IMG/VR virus record: IMGVR_UViG_3300031539_004337
Location: 1 to 20,675 of that record
Length of the DNA: 20,675 nt
Reading direction: 5' to 3' (one strand)
Source of the DNA: a virus
A program made the position numbers and the translations under genes. The stretch's first letter is position 1; the number at the start of each line of letters is the position of its first letter. The notes under the pieces are model-generated. The model worked only from the letters and a program-made list of their open reading frames with translations, was not told the DNA's origin and made no database searches. Below, in pieces: positions 5,755 to 20,675 of the stretch.

Positions 5755-5756
5755 CG

Positions 5757-6433: not shown

Positions 6434-6773
6434 CGGCTACGGCTACGGCGACGGCTTCGGCTCCGGCTTCGGCTACGGCGACGGCTTCGGCTCCGGCTTC
6501 GGCTACGGCGACGGCTTCGGCGACGGCTACGGCTACGGCGACGGCTTCGGCGACGGCTTCGGCTACGGCGACGGAGAAGCCACGACCACGGCGGGCAAAT
6601 ATGTCGTCGCGATTCACCGACCATACGGCGTGATATCAGCCGGGTGCCAAGCAGGCACGCTCTCGTGGTGGCGTGAGCGCTGGGAGGAGATCGCGCGAGA
6701 CGAGGGCGTCTCGATGGACGAGGCGCGGACAGCTTTGCAGGCGGTCGAGGCCGCCATGGGAGGAGCGACATGA
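6420..6773 (+). CDS. Gly-X dipeptide repeat protein (117 aa)
   Basis: The ATG at 6420 has AGAGG 4 bases upstream and overlaps the previous gene by 14 bases. After five residues the protein consists of 23 Gly-X dipeptides (X = Tyr, Asp, Phe or Ser) to about residue 51. A folded C-terminal domain follows: GKYVVAIHRPYGVISAGC, then helices SWWRERWEEIARDEG and MDEARTALQAVEAAM. The repeat could be a flexible aromatic linker or a self-associating segment; this is inference. The C-terminal part has no family I recognise. Codon use in the repeat is entirely GGC alternating with NNC. Confidence 0.7.
   Translation: MPGSSGYGYGDGFGSGFGYGDGFGSGFGYGDGFGDGYGYGDGFGDGFGYGDGEATTTAGKYVVAIHRPYGVISAGCQAGTLSWWRERWEEIARDEGVSMDEARTALQAVEAAMGGAT
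6435..6572 (+). repeat. GGC-NNC tandem repeat encoding Gly-Tyr/Asp/Phe/Ser
   Basis: A 138-base tract of 23 hexamers of form GGC-NNC with a higher-order 30-base period beginning at 6441. Units 1 and 2 (6441-6470, 6471-6500) are identical. Units 3 and 4 differ only at codon positions 1 or 2, swapping TCC for GAC and TTC for TAC. It should be prone to slippage and recombinational length change. Confidence 0.95.
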
Positions 6774-7114
6774 GCAACATCCAGCAGTGGTACCGGGCCA
6801 TGGGATTCGATCGCAGCGCCAAGGCCACCATCATCGAGGACATGATGGCGGAGCGCCTCGACGCGGAGCGCGGAAACGCGCGCCACAGGGAGATCCGAAA
6901 CCGGCTCGCCGATGCCGAGGTCCAGCTCTCCGAGACGATGCGCGAGCTCAGGCAGCTCCGCCGGCGGGAGGACTACCTGACGGCCACCGAGCGACAGCTC
7001 CGCGGGATCATCGAGGAGCTGTCCTCGCAGTGCCGCGGTGCCAAGGACATCGACACGCAGGCGATGGCGCAGCGGCACCGGGAGCGGCTGGCGGACGTGC
7101 TGGGGGGCGAGTGA
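6770..7114 (+). CDS. coiled-coil hypothetical protein (114 aa)
   Basis: The ATG overlaps the previous stop (ATGA). The N-terminus (MSNIQQWYRAMGFD) is short and is followed by long helices rich in Glu, Arg and Leu from about residue 22 to 95, with a heptad-like pattern around RLADAEVQLSETMRELRQLRRREDYL. It is probably a dimeric or oligomeric coiled-coil. It sits directly ahead of the YqaJ exonuclease, with a TGATG junction, so it may assist recombination, but no family is recognised. Confidence 0.72.
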   Translation: MSNIQQWYRAMGFDRSAKATIIEDMMAERLDAERGNARHREIRNRLADAEVQLSETMRELRQLRRREDYLTATERQLRGIIEELSSQCRGAKDIDTQAMAQRHRERLADVLGGE

Positions 7115-8142
7115 TGACTGACATGCTCTGCGACGCCCACAAGCTCACCAACGACGTCAACCTCCAGTCCACCAACCCGGCCCGCTGGCATGAGCTGCGG
7201 CGCGGCGGCATCGGCGGAAGCGACGTCCCCAAGCTCTGCGGGGCCTACGGTGACGACCCGCCCGAGTGGGGCACGCCGCTGGCCGTCTATCGCTCCAAGA
7301 CCGAGCCAGTCGAGGAGCGCCGCGAGCTCGACAACGTGGCGGCGGCGATCGGCACCGCGATGGAGGATCTCCTCGCCCGCCTCTACGAGCAGACGACGGG
7401 ATTGGTGACGATCAAAGCGCCGATGTGCTGCGACCCTGCCCGGCCGTGGAGGCGGGCCTCGGTCGACCGGCTCGTCTACGAGGAGGCAGCGGACTTGTCG
7501 AAGAGCCGGCCCGTCGCCGTGCTCGAGTTGAAGCGCCCGACGGCGTGGAATCAGACGTGGAAGGGCGACGACGCGCCGGCCTACGCCCGCATGCAGGGCC
7601 AGTGGTACGCGAGCATCCTGGGGCTGCCACGGGTCGACATCTTCGCCCTCGTCAGCGACACGACGCCGAGGCTCTTTACGTACCCGGCCGACCCGGAGCT
7701 GGCCGAGCTGCTCACCGCGGAGTGCGAGACCTTCTGGACGCAGCACGTCATCGCAAAGGAGCCGCCCCTGCCGGTGGCGTCCGAGCGTCGCGCGTGGCTC
7801 GGTGATCGGTACCCGGAGATCACCGCGCCGATGGCCTCGGCGACGATGTACCAGGAGGCCCTCGCGGAGTCGCTCCAGCTGCTCGGGCGGCGGCAGAAGC
7901 TGCTCGACACGCGCAAGGCCGAGGTCACCGACGAGCTGCTCCAGAGCCTGCGGGGAGGCGAGGGCGTGAAAGGCGCCGGCTGGAGCTTCACCTGGCGCGA
8001 GTCGGACGGCAGGGTGGCATGGAAGGCCCTGGCCGAGACGCTGCTGCCACAGGTCGACGACGAGCAGCAGGCCTTCCTGCTGCGGCAATTCACCGGGCGG
8101 CCGTCGCGGTCGCCGAGATACAACCCGAAGAGGAGCAAGTGA
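7114..8142 (+). CDS. YqaJ-type viral recombinase exonuclease (lambda-exonuclease-like)
   Basis: 342 residues from the ATG at 7114, which shares a base with the preceding stop. PD-(D/E)XK features typical of YqaJ nucleases are present: RRGGIGGSDVPKLCG (about 30-43), G-T-A-M-E with E84, RASVDRL with D118, and VAVLELKRP with E138 and K140, then QGQWYASILG (161-170). Such enzymes resect 5' ends to yield 3' single strands for an annealing partner. The adjacent downstream gene is RecT, so the two form a two-component recombination system for double-strand break repair, concatemer formation and exchange with other phages. The C-terminal third is helical. Slightly longer than many homologues. Confidence 0.93.
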   Translation: MTDMLCDAHKLTNDVNLQSTNPARWHELRRGGIGGSDVPKLCGAYGDDPPEWGTPLAVYRSKTEPVEERRELDNVAAAIGTAMEDLLARLYEQTTGLVTIKAPMCCDPARPWRRASVDRLVYEEAADLSKSRPVAVLELKRPTAWNQTWKGDDAPAYARMQGQWYASILGLPRVDIFALVSDTTPRLFTYPADPELAELLTAECETFWTQHVIAKEPPLPVASERRAWLGDRYPEITAPMASATMYQEALAESLQLLGRRQKLLDTRKAEVTDELLQSLRGGEGVKGAGWSFTWRESDGRVAWKALAETLLPQVDDEQQAFLLRQFTGRPSRSPRYNPKRSK

Positions 8143-9544: not shown

Positions 9545-10074
9545 TGGCTACCATCCTAGCCATAGACCCCGGATTCCGCCGTACCGGATGGGTCGTCGTC
9601 GACGTGCATGGCGACGGCATCATCCCGGTGGAGTGCGGCCTCATCGAGACGCAGAAGGCCACCGGCAAGGTCCTGGTCGCCGTCGACGACTGGGAGTGCT
9701 GCCGCATCATCACCCGCGAGCTCATCGCCGTCGCGTGCATCCACGAGGCCAGGTGCATCGTGGTCGAGGCGCCGGCCGGGAGCAAGAGCAGCCGGGCCGC
9801 GAAGTGCATGGCTTTGGCCTTCGCCTGCTGCGCGGCTGTGGCGGAGGTGTACGAGCGCCCGGCCGTGCTGGTGAGCGCCGACCGCGCGAAGAAGGCGGCC
9901 ACCGGGCGCAGGAACGCCTCGAAAGACGACGTGGCCGCAGCGGTGGCGCACCTCCTGCCGCCGGACTGGGGCGACCCGTGGCCGCGCAGCAAGCGGGAGC
10001 ACATCACGGACGCCGCGGCGCTCGTGCTCGGTGCGTGGGAGTCGGACGTGGTGCGGATGGTGAGGGCGCTGTGA
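9544..10074 (+). CDS. RuvC-like Holliday junction resolvase
   Basis: 176 residues; the ATG shares a base with the previous stop. The RNase H-fold signature is present: strand ILAIDPGFRRTGW with D8, strand CIVVEAPAG with E75, and the C-terminal helix HITDAAALVLGAW with D156, with K127/D128 (SKDDV) near the position of the conserved basic residue. RuvC-type resolvases cleave four-way junctions. Coming after exonuclease and RecT, it completes a phage recombination and replication-intermediate processing set. Cysteines are unusually frequent in the middle helix (CMALAFACCAAV). Confidence 0.9.
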   Translation: MATILAIDPGFRRTGWVVVDVHGDGIIPVECGLIETQKATGKVLVAVDDWECCRIITRELIAVACIHEARCIVVEAPAGSKSSRAAKCMALAFACCAAVAEVYERPAVLVSADRAKKAATGRRNASKDDVAAAVAHLLPPDWGDPWPRSKREHITDAAALVLGAWESDVVRMVRAL

Positions 10075-10145
10075 TGGACGCGGTGCTGGAGGACATGGCG
10101 GAGCGCGTCAGGCGCCTGGGGGGGGGGCGGGATGAGCTGCTGTAG
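10074..10145 (+). CDS. possible short ORF or 5' part of a frameshifted gene (23 aa)
   Basis: The ATG sits in a TGATG junction with the resolvase stop, and codons then run MDAVLEDMAERVRRL into a ten-G tract before ending at TAG. On its own the peptide is short. If the tract had nine Gs instead of ten, the frame would join the next ORF into one 65-residue protein. The start context fits the operon, so it may be the authentic beginning of that protein. Either a sequencing slip or a phase-variable tract could explain it. Confidence 0.4.
   Translation: MDAVLEDMAERVRRLGGGRDELL
10118..10127 (+). repeat. ten-G homopolymer tract
   Basis: Ten consecutive Gs between the coding start at 10074 and the ATG at 10132. 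Loss of one G fuses the two reading frames. The tract could also serve as a purine-rich ribosome-binding region for the ATG at 10132, 4 bases downstream of its end. Confidence 0.9.
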
Positions 10146-10260
10146 CTGCGTATGGCTCGAGGCCGATGGGTGGTGGTGTCGCCTCTGGGAGTGCGCCGCG
10201 CTGACCCGCGGGGAGCGGTGCGCACGATGGTCCAGGCGTGAAAACGAAGGCGATGGATGA
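10132..10260 (+). CDS. small Cys/Trp-rich protein (42 aa)
   Basis: The ATG follows the poly-G tract and the stop overlaps the next gene's ATG (ATGA). The peptide begins MSCCSCVWLEADGWW and continues with Cys at 16, 21 and 30. Six cysteines and five tryptophans in 42 residues suggest a zinc- or metal-stabilised mini-fold. No family is recognised. It may be the C-terminal half of a longer protein that starts at 10074. The clean overlap with the methyltransferase supports its being translated. Confidence 0.55.
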   Translation: MSCCSCVWLEADGWWCRLWECAALTRGERCARWSRRENEGDG

Positions 10261-11441
10261 TGGAGCTGGGGCGCCACGTACTCCACTGCGGGGACTGCCT
10301 GGAAGTCATGGCGACGCTGGAACCTGAGAGCGTGGACGCGGTGGTCACGGACCCGCCATACGGCCTCGGGTTCATGGGCAAGGCTTGGGATGCCCTGCCA
10401 CCTGGGCGGGAGTGGGCGGAAGCCTGTCTTCGGGTGCTGAAGCCTGGCGGCCACCTGGTAGCCTTCGGGGGGCAGCGCACGATCCACCGCCTGACCTGCG
10501 CGCTGGAAGATGGTGGCTGGGAGATTCGAGACCAACTCCAGTGGCTCCAGTGGCAGGGGTTTCCGAAGTCGCTGGACGTGTCGAAGGCGATCGACGCTGC
10601 GGCGGGGGCGAAGCGCCGGGTGGTGGGCTACAAGGCCGGCACCATGGCGCACCCTGACACGGGGCGCACCGACATGCCGGGCAAGGCGGTGGGCGTGAAG
10701 CAGACCGGGTGCGCGGTGCCAGTCACCGCCCCCGCCACCGCCGAAGCCCGCCAGTGGTCCGGGTGGGGAACAGCGCTGAAGCCATGCTCCGAGCCTGCGG
10801 TGCTGGCCAGGAAGCCAATGGACGGGACGGTGGCGGCCAACGTGCTGAGGTGGGGGACAGGTGGGATCAACGTGGACGGATGCCGATACCGCCCCGGTGA
10901 CATGGCCTGGCCAGGGCCGCAGAACACGGACCCGGGGACGCGGTGCAATCGGCGGGACGCTGCGGGACGCTGCCAGGGACACGGCAACGCGGGGCTGAGT
11001 ACGTCTGGGCAAACCTTCCACGGACCGGAGTCCGCGCCTGCCGGGTGGTTCCCTTCCAACGTGTACGCCTGCCCGAAGGCCAGCACCGCGGAACGCGAGG
11101 CGGGATGCGAAGGTCTGCGCCAGGTGACACCAGGCGAGGTTACGGGTCGCAAACCAGGAAGCGCCGGTCTCGACAACCCGAGAGCAGGTATGACAGGATC
11201 TCGGTCTCGAGGCAACATGCACCCGACCGTGAAGCCACTGCGGCTGATGCGCTGGCTGGTCCGCCTGGTCACGCCACCGGGCGGGTTGGTTTTGGAGCCG
11301 TTCGCGGGGTCTGGCACCACGCTGCTCGCGTGCGAGGCGGAGCGCGTCCGCTGCCTGGCCATCGAGCGGGAGCCAGACTACTGCGAGATTATCCGGGCAC
11401 GCTGGCTGGCTTCGACTCGCCAGCGCGGGCTGGAACTGTGA
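10257..11441 (+). CDS. site-specific DNA methyltransferase, N4-cytosine/N6-adenine beta class
   Basis: 394 residues (393 if the second ATG is used). The catalytic motif comes first, VVTDPPYGLGFMGKAWD (DPPY at about 32-35), and the SAM-binding motif last, LEPFAGSGTT near 346-355, the order of beta-class amino-methyltransferases related to the N6_N4_Mtase family. The segment MHPTVKPLRLMRWLV is also typical. The long middle region (about 95-310) probably holds the target-recognition domain and is rich in Gly, Thr and Cys. It would modify a specific site in phage DNA. No cognate restriction enzyme lies beside it, so a protective orphan enzyme is likely. Target sequence cannot be read from the gene. 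Confidence 0.92.
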   Translation: MMELGRHVLHCGDCLEVMATLEPESVDAVVTDPPYGLGFMGKAWDALPPGREWAEACLRVLKPGGHLVAFGGQRTIHRLTCALEDGGWEIRDQLQWLQWQGFPKSLDVSKAIDAAAGAKRRVVGYKAGTMAHPDTGRTDMPGKAVGVKQTGCAVPVTAPATAEARQWSGWGTALKPCSEPAVLARKPMDGTVAANVLRWGTGGINVDGCRYRPGDMAWPGPQNTDPGTRCNRRDAAGRCQGHGNAGLSTSGQTFHGPESAPAGWFPSNVYACPKASTAEREAGCEGLRQVTPGEVTGRKPGSAGLDNPRAGMTGSRSRGNMHPTVKPLRLMRWLVRLVTPPGGLVLEPFAGSGTTLLACEAERVRCLAIEREPDYCEIIRARWLASTRQRGLEL

Positions 11442-11473
11442 CCACATCAAAGCCGAATGGGCAGGAGATCCTG

Positions 11474-11671
11474 ATGAACAGCTGGACATGCCAAGAGCCC
11501 CACTGCGACGGCGACATCGTCTGCGCCCAGGTCGACGTGACAGACGGCCAGTATGAGTGCGGCCATCACATCTGGCTGTGGCGAGGCTACTGCAATCGGT
11601 GCGCAGTAGTGCGCAGGCTCCCAGTGCTGCGATGTCCGCAGTGCTGCGGGCTCCGACCGGAGGGTGAGTGA
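11474..11671 (+). CDS. small zinc-ribbon-like Cys-rich protein (65 aa)
   Basis: The start is decided by AGGAG at 11463-11467, six bases before the ATG, after a 32-base gap from the methyltransferase. The frame is open far upstream, but that is the methyltransferase shadow. Cysteines are arranged as CQEPHC near the N-terminus, ECGHH in the middle and CNRC, then CPQCC near the end. This looks like one or two zinc ribbons. No family is recognised. A small nucleic-acid or protein-binding regulator is possible. Confidence 0.65.
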   Translation: MNSWTCQEPHCDGDIVCAQVDVTDGQYECGHHIWLWRGYCNRCAVVRRLPVLRCPQCCGLRPEGE

Positions 11672-11874
11672 TGATGACGAGGGTAGAGCTTGCGATGCTG
11701 CTCGAAGCAAGCGAGCACCAGAATGCCGACCTGCGTGTCAGGCTCGTGCGATACCTCGAGGCCCTGCGCGATGCGCTGGCGGTGATGGACGCCTATGCCG
11801 GCCATGCCGGGTCGAGGGTGGACGGGGAGCGCATCCAGGCGCTCCGGCAGCTCGCGTGGGGTGACACGCCATGA
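11671..11874 (+). CDS. small helical protein (67 aa)
   Basis: The ATG at 11671 shares a base with the previous stop, and GGAGG at about 11659-11663 lies 7 bases upstream. The product (MMTRVELAMLLEAS onward) is helical with LVRYLEALRDALAVMDAYAG in the middle. It is acidic to neutral and has no recognised family. Small helical proteins of this kind are common in phage early operons. Confidence 0.65.
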   Translation: MMTRVELAMLLEASEHQNADLRVRLVRYLEALRDALAVMDAYAGHAGSRVDGERIQALRQLAWGDTP

Positions 11875-12086
11875 TGAGCAGGGATGCACGGAGCACGGCG
11901 GATGCAGTGTTGCGCAGGCTCGGAGAAGTCAAGGCCGAGGCTGCCGCGCTCCGGCTGGAGCGAGACCACCTGCGGACGCTGCTACGGCAGGCGATGGTGG
12001 AGCTCGGCGTGGCCGTGAGGCATGGGATCTACGACCAGGGAGTGTACGAGGCGCTGGTAGCAGCGCTCGGAGAAGATCATGGGTGA
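11871..12086 (+). CDS. small coiled-coil protein (71 aa)
   Basis: The ATG overlaps the previous stop (ATGA). Residues 8-45 form a strong predicted helix/coiled coil (AVLRRLGEVKAEAAALRLER). The rest has VRHGIYDQGVYEALVAALG. It shares the repeated 'LRxERDxLR' style with the next protein, so the two may be distant duplicates. Function unknown. Confidence 0.65.
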   Translation: MMSRDARSTADAVLRRLGEVKAEAAALRLERDHLRTLLRQAMVELGVAVRHGIYDQGVYEALVAALGEDHG

Positions 12087-12300
12087 TGACGATGTGATGG
12101 CGCTGCGGGCTGAGCGCGACGAGCTGCGTGCCGCTCTCGCCGAGGCCCTGAGCCTGATGGCAGACCACGATGTATGGAACTGCATGGGCTGCGGGGCGGA
12201 CCTGGAGCGCGGCGACCCGTGCGATGCGACTTGCCGCGTGCGGGCGATGCGAGAGCTGGCGGGGGTTCAGCACGGGGGCGTGGAAGGAGAGCTGAAATGA
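12079..12300 (+). CDS. small coiled-coil plus zinc-knuckle protein (73 aa)
   Basis: The ATG overlaps the previous gene by 8 bases. The N-terminal helix MALRAERDELRAALAEALS resembles the helix of the preceding protein. It is followed by WNCMGCGADLERGDPCDATC, four cysteines spaced to hold a zinc ion. Helix plus metal knuckle suggests protein-protein or nucleic-acid contact. No family recognised. Confidence 0.67.
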   Translation: MGDDDVMALRAERDELRAALAEALSLMADHDVWNCMGCGADLERGDPCDATCRVRAMRELAGVQHGGVEGELK

Positions 12301-12581
12301 GCATGGAAGACTGGAGGATTGAGAAATACTGGGACGATTGGTTCGGGCTCAAGCACAAGGTCCGACCGGGCTACTACGGGATCCCGGAGGGCACGCGCGA
12401 ACAGTGGGCAGGGTTGATCGCGGCGGTCAGAAAGGGAGAGAACTACTACAGCAAGCGCCTCGGGTTTGAGGATGGCGCAGTCTTGAGCCCAAGAAACTCC
12501 GACGGAGGCCCAGGCAGTCTCTTTGAGATTGACGATCCTGATGCGTTTGCAGATTGGGTCGAGTGGGAGGTGCAGCGATGA
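12297..12581 (+). CDS. hypothetical protein (94 aa)
   Basis: The ATG overlaps the previous stop (ATGA) and AAGGAGA lies about 8 bases upstream. The product MSMEDWRIEKYWDDW is rich in aromatic residues at the start, then has GYYGIPEGTREQWAGLIAAVRKG and an acidic C-terminus (DDPDAFADWVEWEVQR). It looks like a compact alpha/beta protein. Its local GC is slightly lower than that of its neighbours. I do not recognise the family. Confidence 0.67.
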   Translation: MSMEDWRIEKYWDDWFGLKHKVRPGYYGIPEGTREQWAGLIAAVRKGENYYSKRLGFEDGAVLSPRNSDGGPGSLFEIDDPDAFADWVEWEVQR

Positions 12582-12964
12582 TCCCAGACTGGGCCTGGAT
12601 CCTCATCCTCATCCTCCCCGCCGGCTGGCTGCGCCTCGTCGGGCACGAGCTCTCACACGCCGTCGCGTGCGTCGTGACCGGCGGGACCGTCGACTGGGCA
12701 CGGCTCCGGCTGTGGCCTGGTCGGATCGACGGCCGATGGTACTGGGGCTGGTGCTACCGCGCCGGCGGCGATGACCTCTGGATCGGGATCGCCCCGGCAG
12801 GCAAGGCGACGGCCCTGACGGTGTGCTGGCTCGTGCCGGCGGCGCTGTGGTGGGACCCGCTCTACGTCCTCGCCGCGTGGGAGCTCACCGACGTCCTGTG
12901 GTGGTGGGCGGGCTGGCTCTGGAGGCCCGACTCGGACGGTGGGCGGGTGCGTCGGCTTCTCTGA
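12578..12964 (+). CDS. small membrane protein with HELSH zinc-metalloprotease motif (128 aa)
   Basis: The ATG overlaps the previous stop (ATGA). A first hydrophobic segment (WAWILILILPAGWLRLVG, about 5-22) runs into GHELSHAVACVVTGG. HELSH at 23-27 fits the HExxH metalloprotease motif, and its position at the membrane interface is like M50 (site-2) and related membrane metallopeptidases. Two more hydrophobic segments follow (about 78-92 and 94-115), with ELTD at 102-105 as a possible third zinc ligand. At 128 residues it is much smaller than a standard M50 enzyme. It is the last gene of the rightward operon. Substrate unknown; a pseudo-enzyme or holin-like role is not excluded. Confidence 0.7.
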   Translation: MIPDWAWILILILPAGWLRLVGHELSHAVACVVTGGTVDWARLRLWPGRIDGRWYWGWCYRAGGDDLWIGIAPAGKATALTVCWLVPAALWWDPLYVLAAWELTDVLWWWAGWLWRPDSDGGRVRRLL

Positions 12965-12968
12965 CTTT

Positions 12969-12989
12969 TTTTGTCGAATCGCGACAAAA
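12969..12989. promoter_or_regulatory. perfect palindrome upstream of HNH promoter, operator candidate
   Basis: Arms TTTTGTCG (12969-12976) and CGACAAAA (12982-12989) are exact reverse complements around a 5-base centre. The centre lies about 50 bases upstream of the predicted transcription start, just ahead of the -35. No T-run follows the stem on either strand in the right place, so an intrinsic terminator is unlikely. It differs in sequence from the operator at 6063-6101. Confidence 0.6.
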
Positions 12990-12993
12990 CACG

Positions 12994-13022
12994 TTGACCT
13001 CTCTCCCTGGCGTGTGTACTAT
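12994..13022 (+). promoter_or_regulatory. sigma70-like promoter of the HNH cassette
   Basis: TTGACC (12994-12999), an exact 17-base spacer and TACTAT (13017-13022); 5 of 6 and 4 of 6 matches. Transcription would start near 13029, about 21 bases before the HNH start codon. The region is clearly less GC-rich than its surroundings and is the best-looking promoter in the window. Confidence 0.72.
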
Positions 13023-13049
13023 TCCAACAGACGCTAAGGGAGATACGAC

Positions 13050-13391
13050 ATGAGCAGCAGTTGGATTAGACAGGACAAGCGCAACGCAATCTACCTCCGG
13101 GACGGTTGCGCGTGCGTCTTCTGCGGGGCCGCGATGGACGACCCCGGCACCGTCCTGACGCTGGACCACCTGCAAGCGCGCAACCTGGGCGGCAGCAACG
13201 AGGCGACGAACCTCGTGACGGCCTGCCTGAGCTGCAACAGCTCGAAGCAGGACCTCCCGATGCGTGACTGGTACCGCGCCCTCGCCGACCGCGGCGTGGA
13301 CGTGAGCGAGCTCCCGAAGAAAATCCGGCGCCACACCCGCCGGGCCATCAACCTGAAAGCAGCCCGCCAGCTCATCGCGGCGCGGGCGTAG
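13050..13391 (+). CDS. HNH endonuclease (113 aa)
   Basis: Compact HNH nuclease. AAGGGAG precedes the ATG. Motifs in order are RNAIYLRDGCACVFCG (CxxC, residues about 11-26), LTLDHLQARNLGGSNEATNLV (catalytic DH then Asn) and ACLSCNSSKQD (CxxCN). Paired CxxC motifs bind a structural zinc, and the His/Asn pair coordinates the catalytic metal. Such proteins cut or nick DNA. Phage versions act in packaging, in homing or as accessory effectors. There is no terminase nearby and the gene has its own promoter, so the packaging role is less likely. It begins a three-gene cassette. The basic C-terminal helix may contact DNA. Confidence 0.93.
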   Translation: MSSSWIRQDKRNAIYLRDGCACVFCGAAMDDPGTVLTLDHLQARNLGGSNEATNLVTACLSCNSSKQDLPMRDWYRALADRGVDVSELPKKIRRHTRRAINLKAARQLIAARA

Positions 13392-13399
13392 GAGACATC

Positions 13400-13984
13400 A
13401 TGAGCACTGCATCCAATCTCGAGACCATCGCGACGGCCCTTGGCTGGGCCGACTACCAGACCACCGGGAGCCTGGATGTGGGCCCCAGTGACACGCTCCA
13501 GATCAGTGACGGCAACTACTGGTACCTTGTTGACGAGTACTGGGCCTGGGCCTGGGCCTCGGATTACGAGGCCAACAAGGACGGGCGGCCATATGATGAC
13601 TTCTGCCGGGCTGTTGATCATATCGACCCGATGAGCTTGGGCTCGATCCGCGCGGACCGTAAGAGGTGGGCAGGGCTCTGCGGGGTTGGAGGCGACATCT
13701 ACGCTCGCGTCACAGCACCAGACGCCGACAAGATCAACTCCGCGGCGACCTTCCTCGGCGCCACCAAGGCGAGCCACGATCACCACGTATGGCGGGACTA
13801 CGAGACCAAGAGGTGGCTAGCCGCCGACCTCGATGAGCTCGAAGAGCTTGCGGACGAGCTCGATGCAGCTGATGACCTGGAGTCCGTATACGCTGCGTGG
13901 GTCGCAGACCGCGCAGATCTGGAGATCGTCGGGGACGACCACGAGCAACTCGTCGAGGCGATCAAGGCGGCGAAAGAACTGTGA
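13400..13984 (+). CDS. acidic hypothetical protein (194 aa)
   Basis: AGGAG lies 6 bases before the ATG, eight bases after the HNH stop. The N-terminal half is Trp/Tyr-rich (NYWYLVDEYWAWAWASDYE), the middle has CGVGGDIYARVTAPDADK, and the C-terminal third is strongly acidic and helical (LDELEELADELDAADDLE). Overall charge is clearly negative. Acidic phage proteins can be DNA mimics or inhibitors, but no motif proves that here. No family recognised. Confidence 0.72.
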   Translation: MSTASNLETIATALGWADYQTTGSLDVGPSDTLQISDGNYWYLVDEYWAWAWASDYEANKDGRPYDDFCRAVDHIDPMSLGSIRADRKRWAGLCGVGGDIYARVTAPDADKINSAATFLGATKASHDHHVWRDYETKRWLAADLDELEELADELDAADDLESVYAAWVADRADLEIVGDDHEQLVEAIKAAKEL

Positions 13985-14319
13985 AAATCCCACGAGCAGA
14001 CGAGCTGGCGATAACCTGGGGCGTGGCTGTAGACACCATCTACAGCCGCACGAGCGGTAGAGCCCACGTCACCGCGCTCGACCTCGACGACCTGGCCAGG
14101 CGTCATCGGCTCGACCGCGGCGAGATCGTCGAGCACTTCGCCGCCAGACGCCGGCGCTACCTCGAGCGCATCGGGGAGCCATCGCCACCGGCAGAGCCGG
14201 ACGTCACCGACAGCGATCGGGAGGCGATGCGACGGGTAGCAGCTCGCGTCGCCGAGCGGGCGGCAGCCGAGATCAATGCCGGCCGGCTAGTCGACAGCGA
14301 GGACGACGACGGCGGTTAG
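13981..14319 (+). CDS. small HTH-like hypothetical protein (112 aa)
   Basis: GTG start in a GTGA overlap with the acidic protein's stop. Residues 5-55 (ADELAITWGVAVDTIYSRTS then LDLDDLARRHRLDRGEIVEHF) resemble a compact helix-turn-helix. Residues 75-108 are helical with an acidic tail (SEDDDGG). It may regulate the cassette, possibly through the palindrome ahead of the HNH promoter. That link is inference. The 3' end overlaps the convergent spanin-like gene by 33 bases. Confidence 0.62.
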   Translation: MKIPRADELAITWGVAVDTIYSRTSGRAHVTALDLDDLARRHRLDRGEIVEHFAARRRRYLERIGEPSPPAEPDVTDSDREAMRRVAARVAERAAAEINAGRLVDSEDDDGG

Positions 14320-14679
14320 CGCACCGGCCGCGACGATGCCGAGGGCGATCACAAACGCCGGCTCCTGCCACCATGACACCTGGGCAGGGGCCGGCGTCGT
14401 CGCGTCTGCGAGCAGCTGCGCCAGCCGGGCTGCCCGGAAGCGCTCGTCCTGCTCATCAGCCCGTGCTGCAGCCATCTCCGCCTCGTGCTGGTCACGCATG
14501 ACCGTTGCCTCCGCCTCGCAGGCGCGCAGCCGCTCGTGCTCCACGAGTGCCCTGCGGACCTCGTCCTGGTCGAGACACAGGGACGTGCTCGGGCACGGAG
14601 CGGGTGGAGCGGGACTGCTCGCATAGCCCGTGCCCGAGCACAGTAGGAGCATGAGCAGGAGCAGGGACAACCTACTCAT
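14287..14679 (-). CDS. spanin-like protein with N-terminal signal and C-terminal TM (130 aa)
   Basis: The start ATG at 14679 is preferred because MSRLSLLLLMLLLCSG is a signal peptide with Cys14 as possible lipidation site; the LLLC lipobox is imperfect. A Pro-rich stretch (SSPAPPAPCPSTS) follows, then an acidic/basic coiled coil (about 38-90), then a TM segment near the C-terminus (FVIALGIVAAGALTAVVVLAV). An outer-membrane lipoprotein anchor plus a C-terminal inner-membrane helix is the layout of unimolecular spanins, which disrupt the Gram-negative envelope at the end of lysis. The order after an i-spanin-like gene and the 8-base overlap also fit an o-spanin. It is the last gene of the late operon. 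Confidence 0.6.
   Translation of the reverse strand: MSRLSLLLLMLLLCSGTGYASSPAPPAPCPSTSLCLDQDEVRRALVEHERLRACEAEATVMRDQHEAEMAAARADEQDERFRAARLAQLLADATTPAPAQVSWWQEPAFVIALGIVAAGALTAVVVLAVD
14585..14641. repeat. 14-bp inverted repeat inside the spanin-like gene
   Basis: GTGCTCGGGCACGG (14585-14598) and CCGTGCCCGAGCAC (14628-14641) are exact reverse complements separated by 29 bases. On the minus-strand mRNA they form a strong stem in the signal-peptide coding region. No T-run follows, so it is not an obvious terminator. Confidence 0.85.
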
Positions 14680-15040
14680 GCGCTCCGTCTCCGAAGGCCG
14701 CCGCCCAGAGATCTGCCAGTCGCTCCGAGCTCGCCTTGTCGATCTCGTCCTCGGCCTCCTCGGCCTGCTGCCGGATCTCCTGGAGGCGCGCGGCGGACTT
14801 GGCACGCTCAGCCTCGAGCCGTACCGCGGTGGCCCGGTGGCGCTCCGCAGCGGTGCGCTCGATCTCAGCAAGGCGGTTGGCGATCCTGGCCTGCTCCTCG
14901 GCCACAGCCCGCGCCTCCTCGGCCCGCTTGCGGCGCCTGCGCTCGTAGCCGTAGATCGGGATGAGCACGGAGAGGATGACGCCAAGGGCCGCCGCGATCC
15001 ATTTCCAGGCCCGCCCGAGCCATGCCGAGACGCTACCCAC
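14672..15040 (-). CDS. i-spanin-like protein: N-terminal TM plus coiled coil (122 aa)
   Basis: Start is placed at GTG 15040, giving the 8-base overlap GTGGGTAG with the upstream stop. An ATG at 15067 would add nine polar residues and is possible. After SAWLGRAWKW comes one TM helix (IAAALGVILSVLIPIYGY), then a highly charged coiled coil from about residue 33 to 108, rich in Arg, Glu and Ala. This matches the topology of inner-membrane spanins (Rz-like), which pair with an outer-membrane partner. The downstream gene overlaps it by 8 bases, as Rz/Rz1 pairs often do. No sequence-level family signature is claimed. Confidence 0.62.
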   Translation of the reverse strand: MGSVSAWLGRAWKWIAAALGVILSVLIPIYGYERRRRKRAEEARAVAEEQARIANRLAEIERTAAERHRATAVRLEAERAKSAARLQEIRQQAEEAEDEIDKASSERLADLWAAAFGDGAHE

Positions 15041-15377
15041 GCGGCATCCCGGGGAGCATGTCGGCAAGCCTGCCGAGGCGCTGCCCGATGAGCCGCACGA
15101 TGCTCGAGGCCAGCACGCCTCCTGCCGCCCCTACCCCAGCGCCATAGCAGGCGTCCCACGAGACAGCACCGAGGACGAGACCTACGGAGGCGCCGATCGC
15201 GATGGATAAGAAGACGAGCAGCGGAGCCCACCACATCCGCTCCGTCGCGGCCTTGGTGTCGGTGCCAGGGCTCCGCAGCTTGTACCGCGACAGCCACGCG
15301 CGCTTGATGGCCTCGGTGATGCCCCACGCGAGGACCGCCGGCACGATGACGCAGAGGGCGATGGCGAGCTCGATCAT
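15033..15377 (-). CDS. holin candidate, 3 TM (114 aa)
   Basis: The ATG at 15377 makes an ATGA overlap with the upstream stop. Hydrophobic segments are at about residues 2-23 (IELAIALCVIVPAVLAWGI), 48-73 (WAPLLVFLSIAIGASVGLVLG) and 76-98 (Gly/Ala-rich). Between the first two is a basic loop (IKRAWLSRYKLRS). Size, three TMs and position next to the endolysin fit a class I holin, which forms membrane lesions that release the endolysin. The Gly/Ala-rich third segment may be amphipathic rather than fully transmembrane. Confidence 0.68.
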   Translation of the reverse strand: MIELAIALCVIVPAVLAWGITEAIKRAWLSRYKLRSPGTDTKAATERMWWAPLLVFLSIAIGASVGLVLGAVSWDACYGAGVGAAGGVLASSIVRLIGQRLGRLADMLPGMPRG

Positions 15378-15622
15378 AGCGCTGCGATCCTGTCCTTGTG
15401 GCGCTCTGCGCACACGCGCTGGATTCCGCCCAGTGCCACGTCGAGGCTCCCGATGCGCTCGCCCTGCCTGTCCTGGCTGGCGGTGATCCTGTCGACGTCT
15501 CGGCGGAGCTCCCCGAGCTCGGACTTCAGCGCCGCCAGGCTGGACGACACCTTGACCGACGCACCGACAGCAGAGCCGACGATCGCCAAGAGGAGCCCAG
15601 CGAATTGAAGCCAGTCCATCAT
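15374..15622 (-). CDS. membrane-anchored coiled-coil lysis protein, second holin candidate (82 aa)
   Basis: The ATG at 15622 shares a base with the endolysin stop; a second ATG follows immediately. MMDWLQFAGLLLAIVGSAVGAS gives one TM at residues 5-22. The rest is a helical, charged region (LAALKSELGELRRDVDRITA) typical of a coiled coil. Layout resembles small XhlA-like haemolysin or antiholin proteins found in lysis cassettes, though they usually have the TM at the other end. Probably modulates or forms membrane lesions together with the 3-TM protein. Confidence 0.6.
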   Translation of the reverse strand: MMDWLQFAGLLLAIVGSAVGASVKVSSSLAALKSELGELRRDVDRITASQDRQGERIGSLDVALGGIQRVCAERHKDRIAAL

Positions 15623-16356
15623 CACACCACCTCCGCCCGCTGCCGCACCAGCAGGTTGCGATCTATGTTTCCATTGCCTCCGCGATACCACGGCACCGAC
15701 CCGTGCCCCGTCCACTGCCAGATCCTCGGCTCCCACCATGACCCATCGGACAGCGCCACGGCATCGGGGCGACGGGTGGGGACGTCGGTGCGCTCCGGGC
15801 CGACCTTGACGTAGGACGCCAGCCACAGGTCGAATAGCGCGAGCTCGGGATTGCCGAGGTAGCGATAGCGCACGTAGCTCCGGCCCGTGTAGATCCCGCA
15901 CCGCTCGCCGAGCTCGTCCTGCACGCGCGCGATGAAGGCCCGCGTCCAGAGCATCACCTCGGACGGCCGGAACTGGCGCCGGAAGGCCTTCCCGCGCTCC
16001 CTGCCTTCCTTCGTCTTGCCGAAGCTTTGCCACTCCATGTCAAGCCACAGGCGCGGGCCGAGCTCGTCTGGCCAGATCGTGCCGAGGATGCCGGCGCGCT
16101 CGACGGCCGCGCAGAAGACGTCGGCCTGCTCGACGGGCCGCCACGTCCGCAGTCCTCGGCGGAGCGGCGTGGCGAAGTGGTAGGCGCCCGTCGGCAGCAG
16201 GGCCTCGAGCGCCTTCCTGGCATGTGCGATGCCCTTCTTCGAGGCGCTCTCGCCCTGCGACAACTTGCATATCACGAAGCCGTCGCCCGCGGCGTGGGCG
16301 CCGGAGTAGTCCGCGCCCGCCAGGCTCTGCCAGCCGCTGACGTCGACTCCGCGCAC
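15622..16356 (-). CDS. endolysin, glycoside hydrolase family 25 (lysozyme/muramidase)
   Basis: 244 residues, GTG start at 16356 with GGAG 7 bases upstream and a three-base gap from the preceding stop. GH25 motifs are present in order: RGVDVSGWQ (D5), VICKLSQG, PTGAYHFA, LWLDMEWQ (D106 and catalytic E108), CGIYTGRSY, LWLASYVK, and IWQWTGHGSVPWY ending with NIDRNL. These enzymes cleave the MurNAc-GlcNAc bond of peptidoglycan. There is no signal peptide and no cell-wall-binding tail, so export must rely on a holin. That matches the genes that follow. A GH25 endolysin with spanin-like genes is a less common pairing than the usual lysozyme fold. Confidence 0.94.
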   Translation of the reverse strand: MRGVDVSGWQSLAGADYSGAHAAGDGFVICKLSQGESASKKGIAHARKALEALLPTGAYHFATPLRRGLRTWRPVEQADVFCAAVERAGILGTIWPDELGPRLWLDMEWQSFGKTKEGRERGKAFRRQFRPSEVMLWTRAFIARVQDELGERCGIYTGRSYVRYRYLGNPELALFDLWLASYVKVGPERTDVPTRRPDAVALSDGSWWEPRIWQWTGHGSVPWYRGGNGNIDRNLLVRQRAEVV

Positions 16357-16359
16357 AGC

Positions 16360-17235
16360 CTACTCCGTGGTGCCGTAGGTTCCGAAGACCACCAGCCGGC
16401 CGGCCGTGATGGCCTCGACACCGACCTCGAGGTTGAGCCGCCGCCTGCTTGTCGTCTTGGTCGTGGCCGCCGCTGCGGTTCCGTCGCAGAGCGTGTCGAG
16501 CAGCCCCGCCGCGTCCCACGGGTTGCTCAAGTCCGAGATCGCGATGGCTGCCACGATGCCCGTGGTGTCGTCTGCCGTGACGCCGAGGCCCACCGTGGCC
16601 GCGTCACCAGTCGGGCTCTCGAGCGTGGTGAGGACCTCGGCCTTGGCGCTCACCACGTAGGCGTTGTCCGGCAGCTCCGGGCCGAATGGGTTGGATCCGA
16701 CGGCGCCACCGTGCGTCGCGAAGTCGTAGGTCGCGCGGAAGTTTCCGCTCGTAGCGAAGTCGACGGATCCCGACACGTCGTAGACGACGCCCCACTTGGC
16801 GGCGCCCGTGCTCTTGTCGAAGCAGGCGTAGGCCGTCGCATCCGTCACTCGGATGGAGCCGTTGAACCAGCCCTTCGTCTGGTCGTCGGTCGCACCGGGG
16901 ACGCCAGCGATGGCCACGACGTAGGTGGTGCGCAACCAGACGGCGGCTCCGGCTGCAGCGCTGGTACACAGCCACTGCGACCCGTCGAGCGTGTTGGCGA
17001 CAACATCACCGAAGGCGTAGCCTGCGTCCACGTCCTGGGCGACCCCGGGCTGCGCACCGAGGGTCTTGAGCGTCCGCGTGTGCCAGGCGGTGGTGCCGTT
17101 GATGTTCTGGAAGACGTCCGAGCCGTCGGCCATGAACGCAATGGCGCCGATGTCCCCCATGATGATCCCGTTGGGGTCGGCGTCGACGATGAGGAAATCC
17201 AGGTCCCCGAAGGGCTCGCGGTGGACGATGGCCAT
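16360..17235 (-). CDS. virion-type paralog 1, shared N-terminal module plus beta-rich tail (291 aa)
   Basis: SD TAGGAG precedes the ATG. Residues 1-52 are the shared module (MAIVHREPFGDLDFLIVDAD, then a Gly-rich part ending in NGTTAW). Beyond it is a middle region with LCTSAAAGAAVWLRTTYVV and then KWGVVYDVSGSVDFATSGNF. The C-terminal 120 residues (YDFATHGGAVGSNPFGPELP to RLVVFGTY) resemble, from memory, a recurrent beta-sandwich module in phage structural proteins. Adjacent to the endolysin, a fibre or surface-decoration role is likely. This copy is the last of the array before the lysis genes and its module is the most divergent among paralogs 1-3. Confidence 0.75.
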   Translation of the reverse strand: MAIVHREPFGDLDFLIVDADPNGIIMGDIGAIAFMADGSDVFQNINGTTAWHTRTLKTLGAQPGVAQDVDAGYAFGDVVANTLDGSQWLCTSAAAGAAVWLRTTYVVAIAGVPGATDDQTKGWFNGSIRVTDATAYACFDKSTGAAKWGVVYDVSGSVDFATSGNFRATYDFATHGGAVGSNPFGPELPDNAYVVSAKAEVLTTLESPTGDAATVGLGVTADDTTGIVAAIAISDLSNPWDAAGLLDTLCDGTAAAATTKTTSRRRLNLEVGVEAITAGRLVVFGTYGTTE

Positions 17236-17253
17236 GGGATGCTCCTATGCGTG

Positions 17254-18387
17254 TCAGCCGATCCGCAGGACCGACAGGTTTCTCTTCGTGATGCGGACGT
17301 TGTTTCCGCCGACTGACCGGAAGCGGCCCTCGATGGCCTGGCCAGCCGAAAGGCCGGTGACCCTGCAGTGTGTACCGATGCTCCCGATGTCACCGATGTT
17401 CGAGATCTTGCGCGGGCATTCAGAATCCGCGACCACGACCGAGTTCGCATAGATCGCCGTCTCGAGCGTCTCGAGCGCGGCCGTGACGTTGCCGGTGACA
17501 GTGAACCAGACGAGATAGTCGCCAGCACCAGGCGTGATCGTCATGCCAGTCACGAGGACGTGCGTGGCGCTCGTGGTGTCCGCGTTGCTGGAGCCAGCCA
17601 CGGATGCTGAGTAGGCATCCGGGATGGCATCGATCTTGGTTTTGTCCGCCCCCGTCATCAGGCCGGCGTTGCCGCCCGCGACAGCGACAGGACGAGCCAG
17701 GCGAGCCAGACCGAAACAGCAGCCCAGCTCGAAGTCACGCGGCTCGTGCTCGAGCGAGGAGAGCTGCGGCTGAAACACAAGGTGAACGCCGGTCAGCGCG
17801 AGGGTCGGGATCGGATCATCCTCGAAGCTACCCTGCAGAAACCGCAGTGTGTAGGGTCCGGTGGTGTCGCGCGCCGGGGTGGTGATGACGCAGAACGCGC
17901 CGGTCGGCAGTGTCGGGGCAAGGTCCCCCTGCACGATAGACAGCGTGGCCGCCGCTATGATCATCCCGGCGTAGGCCACGTCGTCGTCGTAGGTCTCTGG
18001 AGTCGGCCTTCCCGCCACGGTGTTCCAGCATCCCCGCTGGCCGTCCACTGCCACCTCGAGCATCACCGGGATTCCCTCGACGTCCTCGTGCCCTGCGACC
18101 CCGGGCGTGGTGGTGAAGTCGAAGCCCGGGTCCGCCGTGACGTCTAGCGTGGTGCCACCAGCAAAGACAAACGGTCCCTGCGAACCGCCCGAGACCTTGA
18201 TGCCGACCGCCAGCCCGCGCACATCCTGCCGCGACCATGCCGTGGCGCCGTCAATGTTCCGGTAGCTCGCGGTCCCATCGTCCATGTACGCCACCGCGCC
18301 GACGAGCGCGCTGGTAGCTCCGCTCGGGTCCGCGTCGACGATGAGGATCTCGGTGTCGCCGAGGGGCTGCCTGTGGATCACTGCCAT
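17254..18387 (-). CDS. virion-type paralog 2 (377 aa)
   Basis: AGGAG lies 7 bases before the ATG. The shared module (MAVIHRQPLGDTEILIVDAD, SGATSALVGAVAYMDDG, NIDGATAW) is followed by a unique segment (GGSQGPFVFAGGTTLDVTAD, WNTVAGRPTPETYDDDVAYAG). A second unique part has beta-prone stretches and ends in GAGDYLVWFTVTGNV, LETAIYANSVVVADSEC and VGGNNVRITKRNLSVL. The last 110 residues look like a jelly-roll or receptor-binding head. No catalytic motif seen. Likely a tail fibre or virion surface protein. The first codons share a 49-base identical block with paralog 3. Confidence 0.75.
   Translation of the reverse strand: MAVIHRQPLGDTEILIVDADPSGATSALVGAVAYMDDGTASYRNIDGATAWSRQDVRGLAVGIKVSGGSQGPFVFAGGTTLDVTADPGFDFTTTPGVAGHEDVEGIPVMLEVAVDGQRGCWNTVAGRPTPETYDDDVAYAGMIIAAATLSIVQGDLAPTLPTGAFCVITTPARDTTGPYTLRFLQGSFEDDPIPTLALTGVHLVFQPQLSSLEHEPRDFELGCCFGLARLARPVAVAGGNAGLMTGADKTKIDAIPDAYSASVAGSSNADTTSATHVLVTGMTITPGAGDYLVWFTVTGNVTAALETLETAIYANSVVVADSECPRKISNIGDIGSIGTHCRVTGLSAGQAIEGRFRSVGGNNVRITKRNLSVLRIG
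18320..18368 (-). repeat. 49-bp identical tag, copy in paralog 2
   Basis: Identical over 49 bases, wobble positions included, to 19880-19928. It encodes PLGDTEILIVDADPSG in both genes. Outside the block the two genes differ within a few bases. Confidence 0.92.
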
Positions 18388-18396
18388 CGTGAGCTC

Positions 18397-19947
18397 CTAG
18401 TCGAGTGGTACCCAGTCGTAATAGAGCATCGTGCCGTAGTAGTCGAGGAGGCCGACGCCGGCGCCGTCCGCGATGACCTGCATCTCGACGCCGATCATGT
18501 CGCCCGCAGCCACGAAGGCCGGCGCGGCGAGCGTGACGGTGGCGGTGTGCCAGCGGATGCCACCGGCGCCGTTGTCGACGCCGCGCTTTACTGCGGTGTT
18601 GTGGCTGGCGTCGTACTCGCCGTCGACAAGCCCAGCGATCGCAGCCTTCGCGGGCATGCCGGCGCCGTCAGCCGGCACCGAGCGGGTGTAGACCACGGCC
18701 CGCGCGTCCCCGACTGGCCCAGTCGTGATCTTGTAGACGCTCTTGTAGCCGGTGATCTTGACGCCGCGCGAGGCCGTCCCGCGCGTCATGAGCGGGGCCT
18801 CGGTGTACCAGTCGCTGCCGGTGACCGAGCCGGTGCGGCGCACAGCAAAGTTATTGCCCGAGCCGTTGACAGTGTTCCACACCCCGCCAGACTTCTCCCC
18901 GCCCATGAAGCTGACCCACAGCTGGCCGTCGGTGAGCGTCTGCGCGGGCACGGCGTCGTCGCCTAGCGGGGAGTGCGTCGCAGCGTGCGGGTCCGCCAAT
19001 GCCAGCGTAGCACCTCCGAGCAGCGATCCACCGAAGCGGCCCAGCGTGCCATGGTCGGCCCGGAAGGAGGACGCCGGGCCAGAGAAGTCGCCGGAAATCG
19101 AGCAGCTCGACAGGTAGCGTGTGCCGGCCGCAGTGACCGTGATCGCGGTGAAGCTCGAATCCGTCTCATCGTCGATCTTTGCGACGGTGACGGCAGCCCC
19201 AAAGCGATTATGGGCTCCTCTGTACATGGTCGCCGTCGGCGCGTTGACCGCCCCGGACGTCTCGGACTGCTCGAGGAAAAGCCGCGCCGTGGCTGTCTGT
19301 CCACTGAGATCGATCGCGCTGGCAGCCCCCATACCCACGACTGCGGCCGACTCGATGTAGAGATCCTGCTGCTTGCCTGCGCCCACGTCGGAAAGCACGA
19401 CGGCGCCGGAAATGAGCCAGTTGGCGACGTCGAAGCGGCTCTGGATTCTGAGCTGCGTGGACGCCCCTGCCGCCGCTGCCGCCGGATCTGCGATGCGCGA
19501 GATCGATCGGGGAGACGTCGGGATCACGCCAAGCGTCACGGACCCATCGGCTACCAGGTGCCAGGCGCCTCCGTCCGTCTGCGGGATCGTGACCGCCTCA
19601 TCATAGGTACCGCGCTTGACGAAGACGACGCGGTCCGCCGCGCTGCCACTCGCCGCGGCCGCAGCGGCAATGTCGGTGATGGCCGCCTGAATCGTGGTGT
19701 AAGGATTGGCCGCGCTGCCGTTTGGGGCCGAGTCGGTGTTGCTCGAGTCGACGTACCGCTCGAGGCCGAGAGCCTCCCGGCTATCGACCCTTGCCCACGC
19801 CGTCGCGCCATCGGTATTGCGCCAGGTCTCGCGGCCGTCTTCGGAGTAGGCGGACGATCCGATGATGCCGGTGACGGCCCCGCTCGGGTCCGCGTCGACG
19901 ATGAGGATCTCGGTGTCGCCGAGGGGCTCGCGGTGTTTCACTGCCAT
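18397..19947 (-). CDS. virion-type paralog 3 with beta-helix-like middle (516 aa)
   Basis: AGGAGGG precedes the ATG. The shared module (MAVKHREPLGDTEILIVDAD) is followed by YVDSSNTDSAPNGSAANPYT, TIQAAITDIAAAAAASG and RVVFVKRGTYDEAVTIP, the entry motif of right-handed beta-helix tail proteins such as pectate-lyase-like tailspikes. The region to about residue 330 is consistent with coils. The C-terminal 190 residues (QLWVSFMGGEKSGGVWNTVNG to YGTMLYYDWVPLD) form another beta-rich domain. No depolymerase catalytic residues can be assigned. Largest member of the array and the best tailspike candidate. Confidence 0.78.
   Translation of the reverse strand: MAVKHREPLGDTEILIVDADPSGAVTGIIGSSAYSEDGRETWRNTDGATAWARVDSREALGLERYVDSSNTDSAPNGSAANPYTTIQAAITDIAAAAAASGSAADRVVFVKRGTYDEAVTIPQTDGGAWHLVADGSVTLGVIPTSPRSISRIADPAAAAAGASTQLRIQSRFDVANWLISGAVVLSDVGAGKQQDLYIESAAVVGMGAASAIDLSGQTATARLFLEQSETSGAVNAPTATMYRGAHNRFGAAVTVAKIDDETDSSFTAITVTAAGTRYLSSCSISGDFSGPASSFRADHGTLGRFGGSLLGGATLALADPHAATHSPLGDDAVPAQTLTDGQLWVSFMGGEKSGGVWNTVNGSGNNFAVRRTGSVTGSDWYTEAPLMTRGTASRGVKITGYKSVYKITTGPVGDARAVVYTRSVPADGAGMPAKAAIAGLVDGEYDASHNTAVKRGVDNGAGGIRWHTATVTLAAPAFVAAGDMIGVEMQVIADGAGVGLLDYYGTMLYYDWVPLD
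19880..19928 (-). repeat. 49-bp identical tag, copy in paralog 3
   Basis: Second copy of the block at 18320-18368, in the same codon phase and at the same position in the gene. A shorter shared stretch of about 18 bases (from GGGTCCGCGTCGACGATG on the plus strand) also occurs in paralog 4 near 20397. Confidence 0.92.
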
Positions 19948-19971
19948 CGGATCGCCCTCCTGATGCTACTA

Positions 19972-20460
19972 CTAGGTCAGCGCCACGCCGTTGTTGCCCA
20001 CGACGCGCCAGACCAGCGCTCCGCCGACCTGCGTGCCGATGAGCTGGAGCGTGTCGCCTGCGTTGCCGAAGGTCAGCGTGACCGAGCCCAGCACGTCGAC
20101 GGCCGCGGCCGCCGTGACCACGATGTCGCCCACGTACACGTCGCAGACGAGGGTCAGCTGCTGGCCCGCGAAGGCCGGGATCGCGAGGGTGCGCGTCTCG
20201 GCTCCGGCCGACGTCATGAAGCACGCGCCGGACTGCACGACCGGGATCGCCAGGCCGTTGCCCGGATCGGCGATGTCGTCGAAGGTCGAGCTGCGGCTCC
20301 AGTTGGTGTCGCCGGCACCGACCTTGTGGTAGATGGCGTTGCCCAGATGGATGCACAGGTCACCAGTGGTGCCGGCGAGGCCGGCACCAGCAGTGGGGTC
20401 CGCGTCGACGATGGCGAGGCGGTTGCTGCCGCCGAGTGGTTGTTGGTCTACGATGGCCAT
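19972..20460 (-). CDS. virion-type paralog 4, short (162 aa)
   Basis: GAGGAG lies 9 bases before the ATG. The module is a divergent version (MAIVDQQPLGGSNRLAIVDAD, ending in GDTNWSR). The remaining 105 residues are beta-rich: IPVVQSGACFMTSAGAETRT, FAGQQLTLVCDVYVGDIVVT, and the ending VGGALVWRVVGNNGVALT. The ending closely matches the next gene (VGGTLAWRVAGNSGCALT), so paralogs 4 and 5 are duplicates at their C-termini. Probably a small decoration or fibre-tip protein. A strong GC hairpin precedes its ribosome-binding site. Confidence 0.75.
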   Translation of the reverse strand: MAIVDQQPLGGSNRLAIVDADPTAGAGLAGTTGDLCIHLGNAIYHKVGAGDTNWSRSSTFDDIADPGNGLAIPVVQSGACFMTSAGAETRTLAIPAFAGQQLTLVCDVYVGDIVVTAAAAVDVLGSVTLTFGNAGDTLQLIGTQVGGALVWRVVGNNGVALT

Positions 20461-20474
20461 TACTCATGCTCCTC

Positions 20475-20491
20475 GGCCGCGTCTCGCGGCC
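20475..20491. repeat. GC hairpin between paralogs 5 and 4
   Basis: GGCCGCG (20475-20481) and CGCGGCC (20485-20491) with a 3-base loop, immediately upstream of the GAGGAG site of paralog 4 on the minus strand. A second small palindrome, CACTG-A-CAGTG, abuts it at 20491-20501. No T-run follows. It may mark an mRNA processing or translation-control element. Confidence 0.75.
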
Positions 20492-20525
20492 ACTGACAGT
20501 GATCCGCGACTCACTCGAGACGCGA

Positions 20526-20675
20526 CTAGGTGAGCGCGCAGCCGGAGTTGCCGGCGACGCGCCACGCGAGGGTGCCGCCGACCGTCATGCCGACGAGCTC
20601 GATCCAGTCCCCGGCCTGCTCCATCGTGATGATGGTGGAGCCAGGGATCGTGTCGACCGCAGAGGCCACGGTGAT
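20526..20675 (-). CDS. virion-type paralog 5, C-terminal 49 residues only (5' end outside window)
   Basis: An open frame runs in from the window edge and ends at TAG (20528-20526). The visible part, ITVASAVDTIPGSTIITMEQ onward to VGGTLAWRVAGNSGCALT, aligns over its length with the end of paralog 4. The gene is cut by the window, so the shared N-terminal module cannot be confirmed for it. A 65-base gap containing hairpins separates it from paralog 4. Confidence 0.78.
   Translation of the reverse strand: MTVASAVDTIPGSTIITMEQAGDWIELVGMTVGGTLAWRVAGNSGCALT

Follow-up and report, generated by a model that had tools for sequence, protein, structure and literature searches.

Why should several neighbouring genes of one phage begin alike and end differently? 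The question is raised by a window that comprises the entire IMG/VR record IMGVR_UViG_3300031539_004337, a linear fragment of 20,675 bases from an uncultured tailed phage. Four consecutive minus-strand genes, P0004, P0003, P0002 and P0001, start with versions of one module of ~52 aa. The original prediction took this module for a common docking peptide of different surface proteins; its gene coordinates are correct, with all genes on the minus strand. Using the P0002 module as query, four copies are retrieved from the whole record, namely itself (E 1.5e-32) and three others:

18232..18387, minus strand: shared module of P0002, residues 1-52; reference copy for the search
19792..19947, minus strand: shared module of P0003, residues 1-52; 67% identity to the P0002 module, E 2.5e-22
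17083..17235, minus strand: shared module of P0001, residues 1-51; about 53% identity to the P0002 module, E 1.7e-17
20296..20460, minus strand: divergent module copy of P0004, residues 1-55, without DGATAW; 41% identity, E 2.6e-5

The first ~52 residues of P0001-P0003 show 49-67% identity to P0002. Module alignment scores were compared with composition-matched shuffles, whose maxima range from 40 to 49. P0001-P0003 reach 206, 164 and 155 among themselves (shuffle maximum 49), and pairs with P0004 reach 54-76 (shuffle maximum 48). Hence the observation of a shared module stands, strong in P0001-P0003 and weaker but above chance in P0004, which represents a remote copy. A Gly-rich segment ending in DGATAW had been assigned to all four genes and is found in P0001-P0003, whereas the P0004 module reads MAIVDQQPLGG..LAIVDADP..GDTNW. 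It had also been suggested to look for further copies past position 20675. The overlapping contig IMGVR_UViG_3300031565_003627 (30,023 bases), which shows 99.99% identity with window positions 7059-20675 and continues further upstream, carries exactly the same four copies and no fifth.

Tblastn against INPHARED with the P0002 module, P0004 and P0003 yielded no matching record, and the overlapping contig is the sole IMG/VR entry related to full-length P0001-P0003. Module scans of genome contigs gave no confirmed relative. A DNA pattern for IVDADP picked up 103 stretches, with module relatives among them only on the overlapping contig, and comparing the module, P0002 and P0003 with PDB sequences returned nothing usable.

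Behind the module the proteins continue as follows, together with the gene preceding P0004:

16360..17235, minus strand: P0001, 291 aa; module, two W-ending fibre-type segments recognised by eye (~61-104 and ~109-152), C-terminal domain
17254..18387, minus strand: P0002, 377 aa; module, middle region, GLMTGADKTKIDAI-type linker, presumed C-terminal beta-rich domain
18397..19947, minus strand: P0003, 516 aa; module, putative start of a pectate-lyase-like beta-helix (61-126), HAATH linker, C-terminal domain
19972..20460, minus strand: P0004, 162 aa; divergent module and C-terminal beta domain (~60-162, AlphaFold model)
20526..20675, minus strand: C-terminal part of P0006, gene cut by the window end (complete gene at L005:7179-7862)

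Blastp between the bodies gives a single match, P0004 with P0006, and the body alignment scores of the four genes lie inside the shuffle range. Judged by blastp and shuffles the bodies are not homologous, so that the predicted divergence into unrelated sequences after the module is borne out. Residues 62-106 of P0001 match a Roseobacter phage CRP-212 protein annotated as a putative tail fibre (E 8e-4), and 34 residues of P0002 (233-266) weakly match the long tail fibre protein of Synechococcus phage S-CREM2 (E 0.09). In P0003, residues 61-126 match the tail protein family phrog_4577 (E 4.6e-5). This hints at the start of a pectate-lyase-like beta-helix and goes some way towards the beta-helix-like region expected in one body, though the Pfam pectinesterase remains below threshold (E 0.018); a single-sequence fold model of P0003 is uninformative (pLDDT 34.6). 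The C-terminal domains of P0004 and P0006 are 60% identical over 102 aa (E 1.6e-39), as foreseen for the fourth and fifth genes. P0006 is complete on the overlapping contig (227 aa) and has an N-terminal module unlike that of the other four.

Read along the minus strand, P0004, P0003, P0002 and P0001 occupy 20460-16360, and the endolysin gene begins four bases on:

15622..16356, minus strand: GH25 endolysin, directly downstream of the array (Pfam PF01183, E 2.5e-17; phrog_291 endolysin, E 3.5e-21)
14672..15067, minus strand: Rz-like spanin candidate (phrog_1026, E 0.0017, weak)

Like the weak spanin candidate, a Gly-zipper membrane protein candidate is located downstream of the endolysin. On the overlapping contig the order is a tape-measure-like gene, four genes, P0006, P0004, P0003, P0002, P0001, the GH25 endolysin and a spanin-like gene. 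There the upstream 913-aa protein matches annotated tail tape measures (E ~3e-7), and the four medium to large genes between it and P0006 gave no useful matches. The region between tape measure and lysis genes is the usual siphoviral site of tail-tip and tail-fibre genes. With the tape-measure match upstream and the endolysin downstream, the array is located among tail and adsorption genes, and the phage is probably a siphovirus, judged by gene order.

In the reading that we moderately favour, these genes form a cluster encoding tail-tip or tail-fibre appendages. Each product would probably be a trimer, in which a leader (~residues 1-20) and a common beta-hairpin element, the core of the module (DPnG...NTDGATAW), would form the virion-proximal base, while the C-terminal bodies (the putative beta-helix and the C-terminal beta domains) would point outward to the host surface; attachment to the tail tip and host contact are both presumed. 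The body resemblances of P0003 to phrog_4577, of P0001 to the CRP-212 segment and of P0006 to phrog_11518 argue for this reading.

Among the relatives of the P0004 body and of the P0006 N-terminus are proteins encoded next to the major capsid gene or annotated as head decoration, which argue against it. Thus capsid decoration or head-fibre proteins, bound to the head shell by the module, are kept as an unlikely alternative. The N-terminal domain of P0006 is widespread and was found in 255 phage records; among those listed, the names are tail fibre, virion structural, head or capsid decoration (e.g. in cyanophage PSS2) and hypothetical, tail fibre being used at least as often. Its best PHROG is the tail fibre protein phrog_11518 (E 5.9e-21), and residues 12-122 also match head decoration phrog_2647 (E 8.3e-14), a domain without a match in P0001-P0004. 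On other contigs, genes that directly precede the major capsid gene encode proteins with 53-60% identity to the P0004/P0006 C-terminal domain, the adjoining gene matching phrog_264, and the Pa223 capsid spike appears among the Foldseek entries for P0004 (E 0.011). The position of the array speaks for the tail instead: P0006 and the array are neighboured by tape-measure-side and lysis genes, with no capsid gene recognised nearby in the stretch examined, and P0003 matches a tail family.

Does the module act as a docking peptide as a whole? When other viral contigs were scanned with module alignments, L014 and L015 emerged as clear relatives, followed by a larger group. In both clear relatives the core (VDADPnG...NTDGATAW.RID) is found 34-37 residues into the open frame, behind a different, probably helical leader. 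In L124 it lies near the N-terminus and is followed by collagen-like repeats, and in L126, L127, L129, L132 and L134-L140 it constitutes the last ~35-45 residues of fibre-like proteins. The leader MAVxHREPLGDTEILIV (first ~15-20 residues) is private to the present phage. A profile search of phage sequences, as had been proposed, retrieves relatives of the core alone.

The fibre-like proteins of L127, L129, L132, L134 and others carry SPxxxVTAxxGSxYxxxxG..YxNTDGATAW, a ~35-residue element that equals the second half of our module. Unlike the present array they have one copy per gene, often C-terminal, and no shared leader. Four of these proteins (L127:3354-5156, L129:3699-5111, L132:4377-5156 and L134:3384-5057) end in ...GS.Y...NTDGATAW, and some adjoin capsid-side genes; they have no PHROG match at E <= 0.001.

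From these sequences, residues ~14-52 appear as an element that is mobile among fibre-type proteins of phages and can be placed at either end. Since the core (DPnG...GS...NTDGATAW) occurs at C-terminal as well as N-terminal sites, it is a generic fibre element rather than a docking peptide and need not be the attachment end. The leader alone is private to the phage and thus the better docking candidate; docking by the leader is plausible. What remains of the predicted docking peptide is that unrelated bodies, encoded where tail genes lie, carry one module at their N-termini, as a common attachment base would require, but most of the module is its generic core.

At the DNA level, P0002 and P0003 show 91% identity in codons 1-23, 60% in codons 24-52 and 34% in codons 53-100. 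Where both genes encode the same residue, the codons differ synonymously at 2 of 21 positions in codons 1-23 and, across codons 24-52, at 10 of 14 (Fisher p 2.6e-4, an optimistic value since the breakpoint was picked after viewing the alignment). No other pair of module genes has a comparable step in identity. Switching by inversion or of DGR type was considered too; inverted repeats as long as the module were not detected. The near-identical block and the recombination genes of the window are located as follows:

18320..18368, minus strand: 49-bp stretch in P0002, identical in DNA to 19880-19928 of P0003
19880..19928, minus strand: 49-bp stretch in P0003, identical in DNA to 18320-18368 of P0002
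8019..8939, plus strand: RecT single-strand annealing protein (PF03837, E 1.6e-34)
6673..8142, plus strand: YqaJ-like viral recombinase/exonuclease (PF09588, E 4.2e-13)

The simplest reading of the near-identical codons 1-23 would be that the 5’ end of P0002 and P0003 underwent gene conversion or cassette exchange in the recent past. The shared 5’ ends would originate from duplication and then be held similar by recombination, recently so in P0002/P0003, and the bodies would consequently be exchangeable behind a constant start. The YqaJ-like gene followed by recT (window 6673-8939, plus strand) constitutes a Red-like recombination pair; RecT and YqaJ are possible agents of module exchange.

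The same 5’ block can be read in another way. The module may be a structural start only, for trimer nucleation or as a beta-fibre cap, without docking specificity, and its likeness among the genes a result of duplication and gene conversion. That the core is found at N-terminal and extreme C-terminal sites of unrelated fibre-like proteins is in line with this, as is the very 5’ end being the most conserved DNA block, which conversion predicts. However, all four copies here are exactly N-terminal, and it is in the private leader of ~15-20 residues that P0002 and P0003 agree best. We consider a purely structural start rather unlikely.

Returning to the appendage cluster, the structure of P0004 was modelled with AlphaFold from a seven-sequence alignment with few aligned sequences over the module. 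The body beta domain (~60-162) reaches pLDDT 71-88 and the module 38-45. A module forming one continuous fold with its C-terminal domain, which would have spoken against the original prediction, is not what this model gives: the body folds as a separate beta domain next to a low-confidence module. An alignment mixing modules with C-terminal domains was set aside, as it placed modules on the wrong domain. In Foldseek, residues 1-335 of CBA120 TSP4 rank first for the model (E 3.6e-5, TM 0.38-0.44, rmsd ~13 A), and T4 gp10 is reached at E 0.41. The TSP4 match is no more than a hint: searched against the PDB, a profile built from the P0004 beta domain sequence retrieved no phage protein, and Foldseek does not indicate which TSP4 domain is matched. 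The body folding apart from the module, together with the TSP4 resemblance, argues for the tail appendage reading.

The TSP4 resemblance also brings up a branched complex, in which P0004 and/or P0006 would be adaptors with T4 gp10-like domains and the leaders of P0001-P0003 would plug into them and not into the tail. TSP4 residues 1-335 bear the XD assembly domains, and the second RBPs of KP32 type are proposed to attach through a ~29-residue N-terminal peptide to a T4gp10-like domain (PMC6872550). Yet the fold match is weak, with T4 gp10 itself reached at E 0.41 only, and P0004 bears the module itself. Moreover, if the matched part is XD1, its role in TSP4 is that of a spacer and not of a docking site. 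Such branching is quite unlikely in our view. A further, improbable reading is an entire cassette system, where the constant near-identical leader DNA at neighbouring 5’ ends would supply short homology, RecT/YqaJ would swap host-contact bodies within or between genomes, and gp10-like adaptors P0004/P0006 would be the socket of the leader.

Is such an array unusual, as had been supposed? CBA120 has four adjacent tailspike genes, three of which share D1 head modules of ~70% identity followed by different bodies (PMC7506556), and the TSP4 N-terminus, an anchor and assembly region, mediates complex assembly through gp10-like domains (PMC8825819). Klebsiella phage RBPs possess short conserved N-terminal peptides, 29 aa in the second RBPs of KP32, and in PhiK64-1 four RBPs bear such a peptide (PMC6872550). 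With shared N-termini on several host-contact proteins already described in CBA120, Klebsiella KP32 and PhiK64-1 phages, the principle is known, while the sequences, the small module size and the phage are new. As in multi-RBP arrays, the present genes are adjacent and have homologous N-termini with non-homologous bodies.

Kuttervirus CBA120 TSP1-TSP4 (ORFs 210-213) resemble our case in four neighbouring genes with a shared N-terminal head module (TSP1, 3 and 4) and in the separate assembly region of TSP4. The heads of TSP1/3/4 are, however, two-unit structures of ~170 aa (D1 about 80 aa) compared with ~52 aa here, and no sequence relation to the present module was found; a module sequence profile searched against the PDB for the D1/D2 head fold returned no tailspike. 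Moreover CBA120 is a myovirus and the present phage probably a siphovirus by gene order. The RBPs of Klebsiella phages KP32, KP34 and PhiK64-1/RaK2 likewise show a short conserved N-terminal stretch before different bodies, but differ in sequence and in a proposed T4gp10-like partner, for which a weak fold hint exists here. The T5-like phages DT57C and DT571/2 are siphoviruses whose lateral tail fibres, proposed to be branched, comprise two proteins, LtfA and LtfB, versus four here (PMC4728585).

Multi-receptor arrays are known, and the uncultured, probably siphoviral phage thus adds a compact case of four genes with a ~52-aa module. Its private leader of ~20 residues, a docking candidate, is now set apart from the widespread hairpin element, which is not to be taken for a docking signal, and the homogenised 5’ block offers a concrete starting point for tracing the diversification of such arrays. 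Directly established are the shared module, the unrelated bodies, the location in the tail module, the homogenised 5’ block and the core relatives in phage fibre-like proteins.

A rough control scan for neighbouring genes with similar stretches (E <= 1e-4, ORFs >= 100 aa) covered 129 loci and 1.12 Mb, including one locus of the present contig, and was not a random virus sample. It revealed a few pairs of neighbours with a common N-terminal stretch, but never four together; as it missed the array of the present contig itself, it detects short shared N-termini with limited sensitivity, and the result is not a frequency. Two such pairs are L133:4711-6845 (34 aa at 62% identity) and L144:8146-9839 (about 125 aa at 33%).

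Elsewhere in the window, a 30-bp tandem repeat at 6434-6574 (4.7 copies, 95% matches) gives an Arg/Ser-rich frame in the minus-strand reading, possibly no gene. A short plus-strand block contains an HNH endonuclease (13050-13391; PF01844, E 5.9e-8) and an M50-like membrane protein candidate (12554-12964, E 0.043). Two DNA methyltransferases were detected, one of Dam type (4591-5760, minus strand; PF05869, E 3.9e-13) and one of N6_N4 type (10257-11441, plus strand; PF01555, E 4.6e-27). A PAPS reductase-family gene (2159-3016, minus strand; PF01507, E 1e-29; phrog_424, E 7e-55) belongs to the moron/auxiliary metabolic type in PHROGs.
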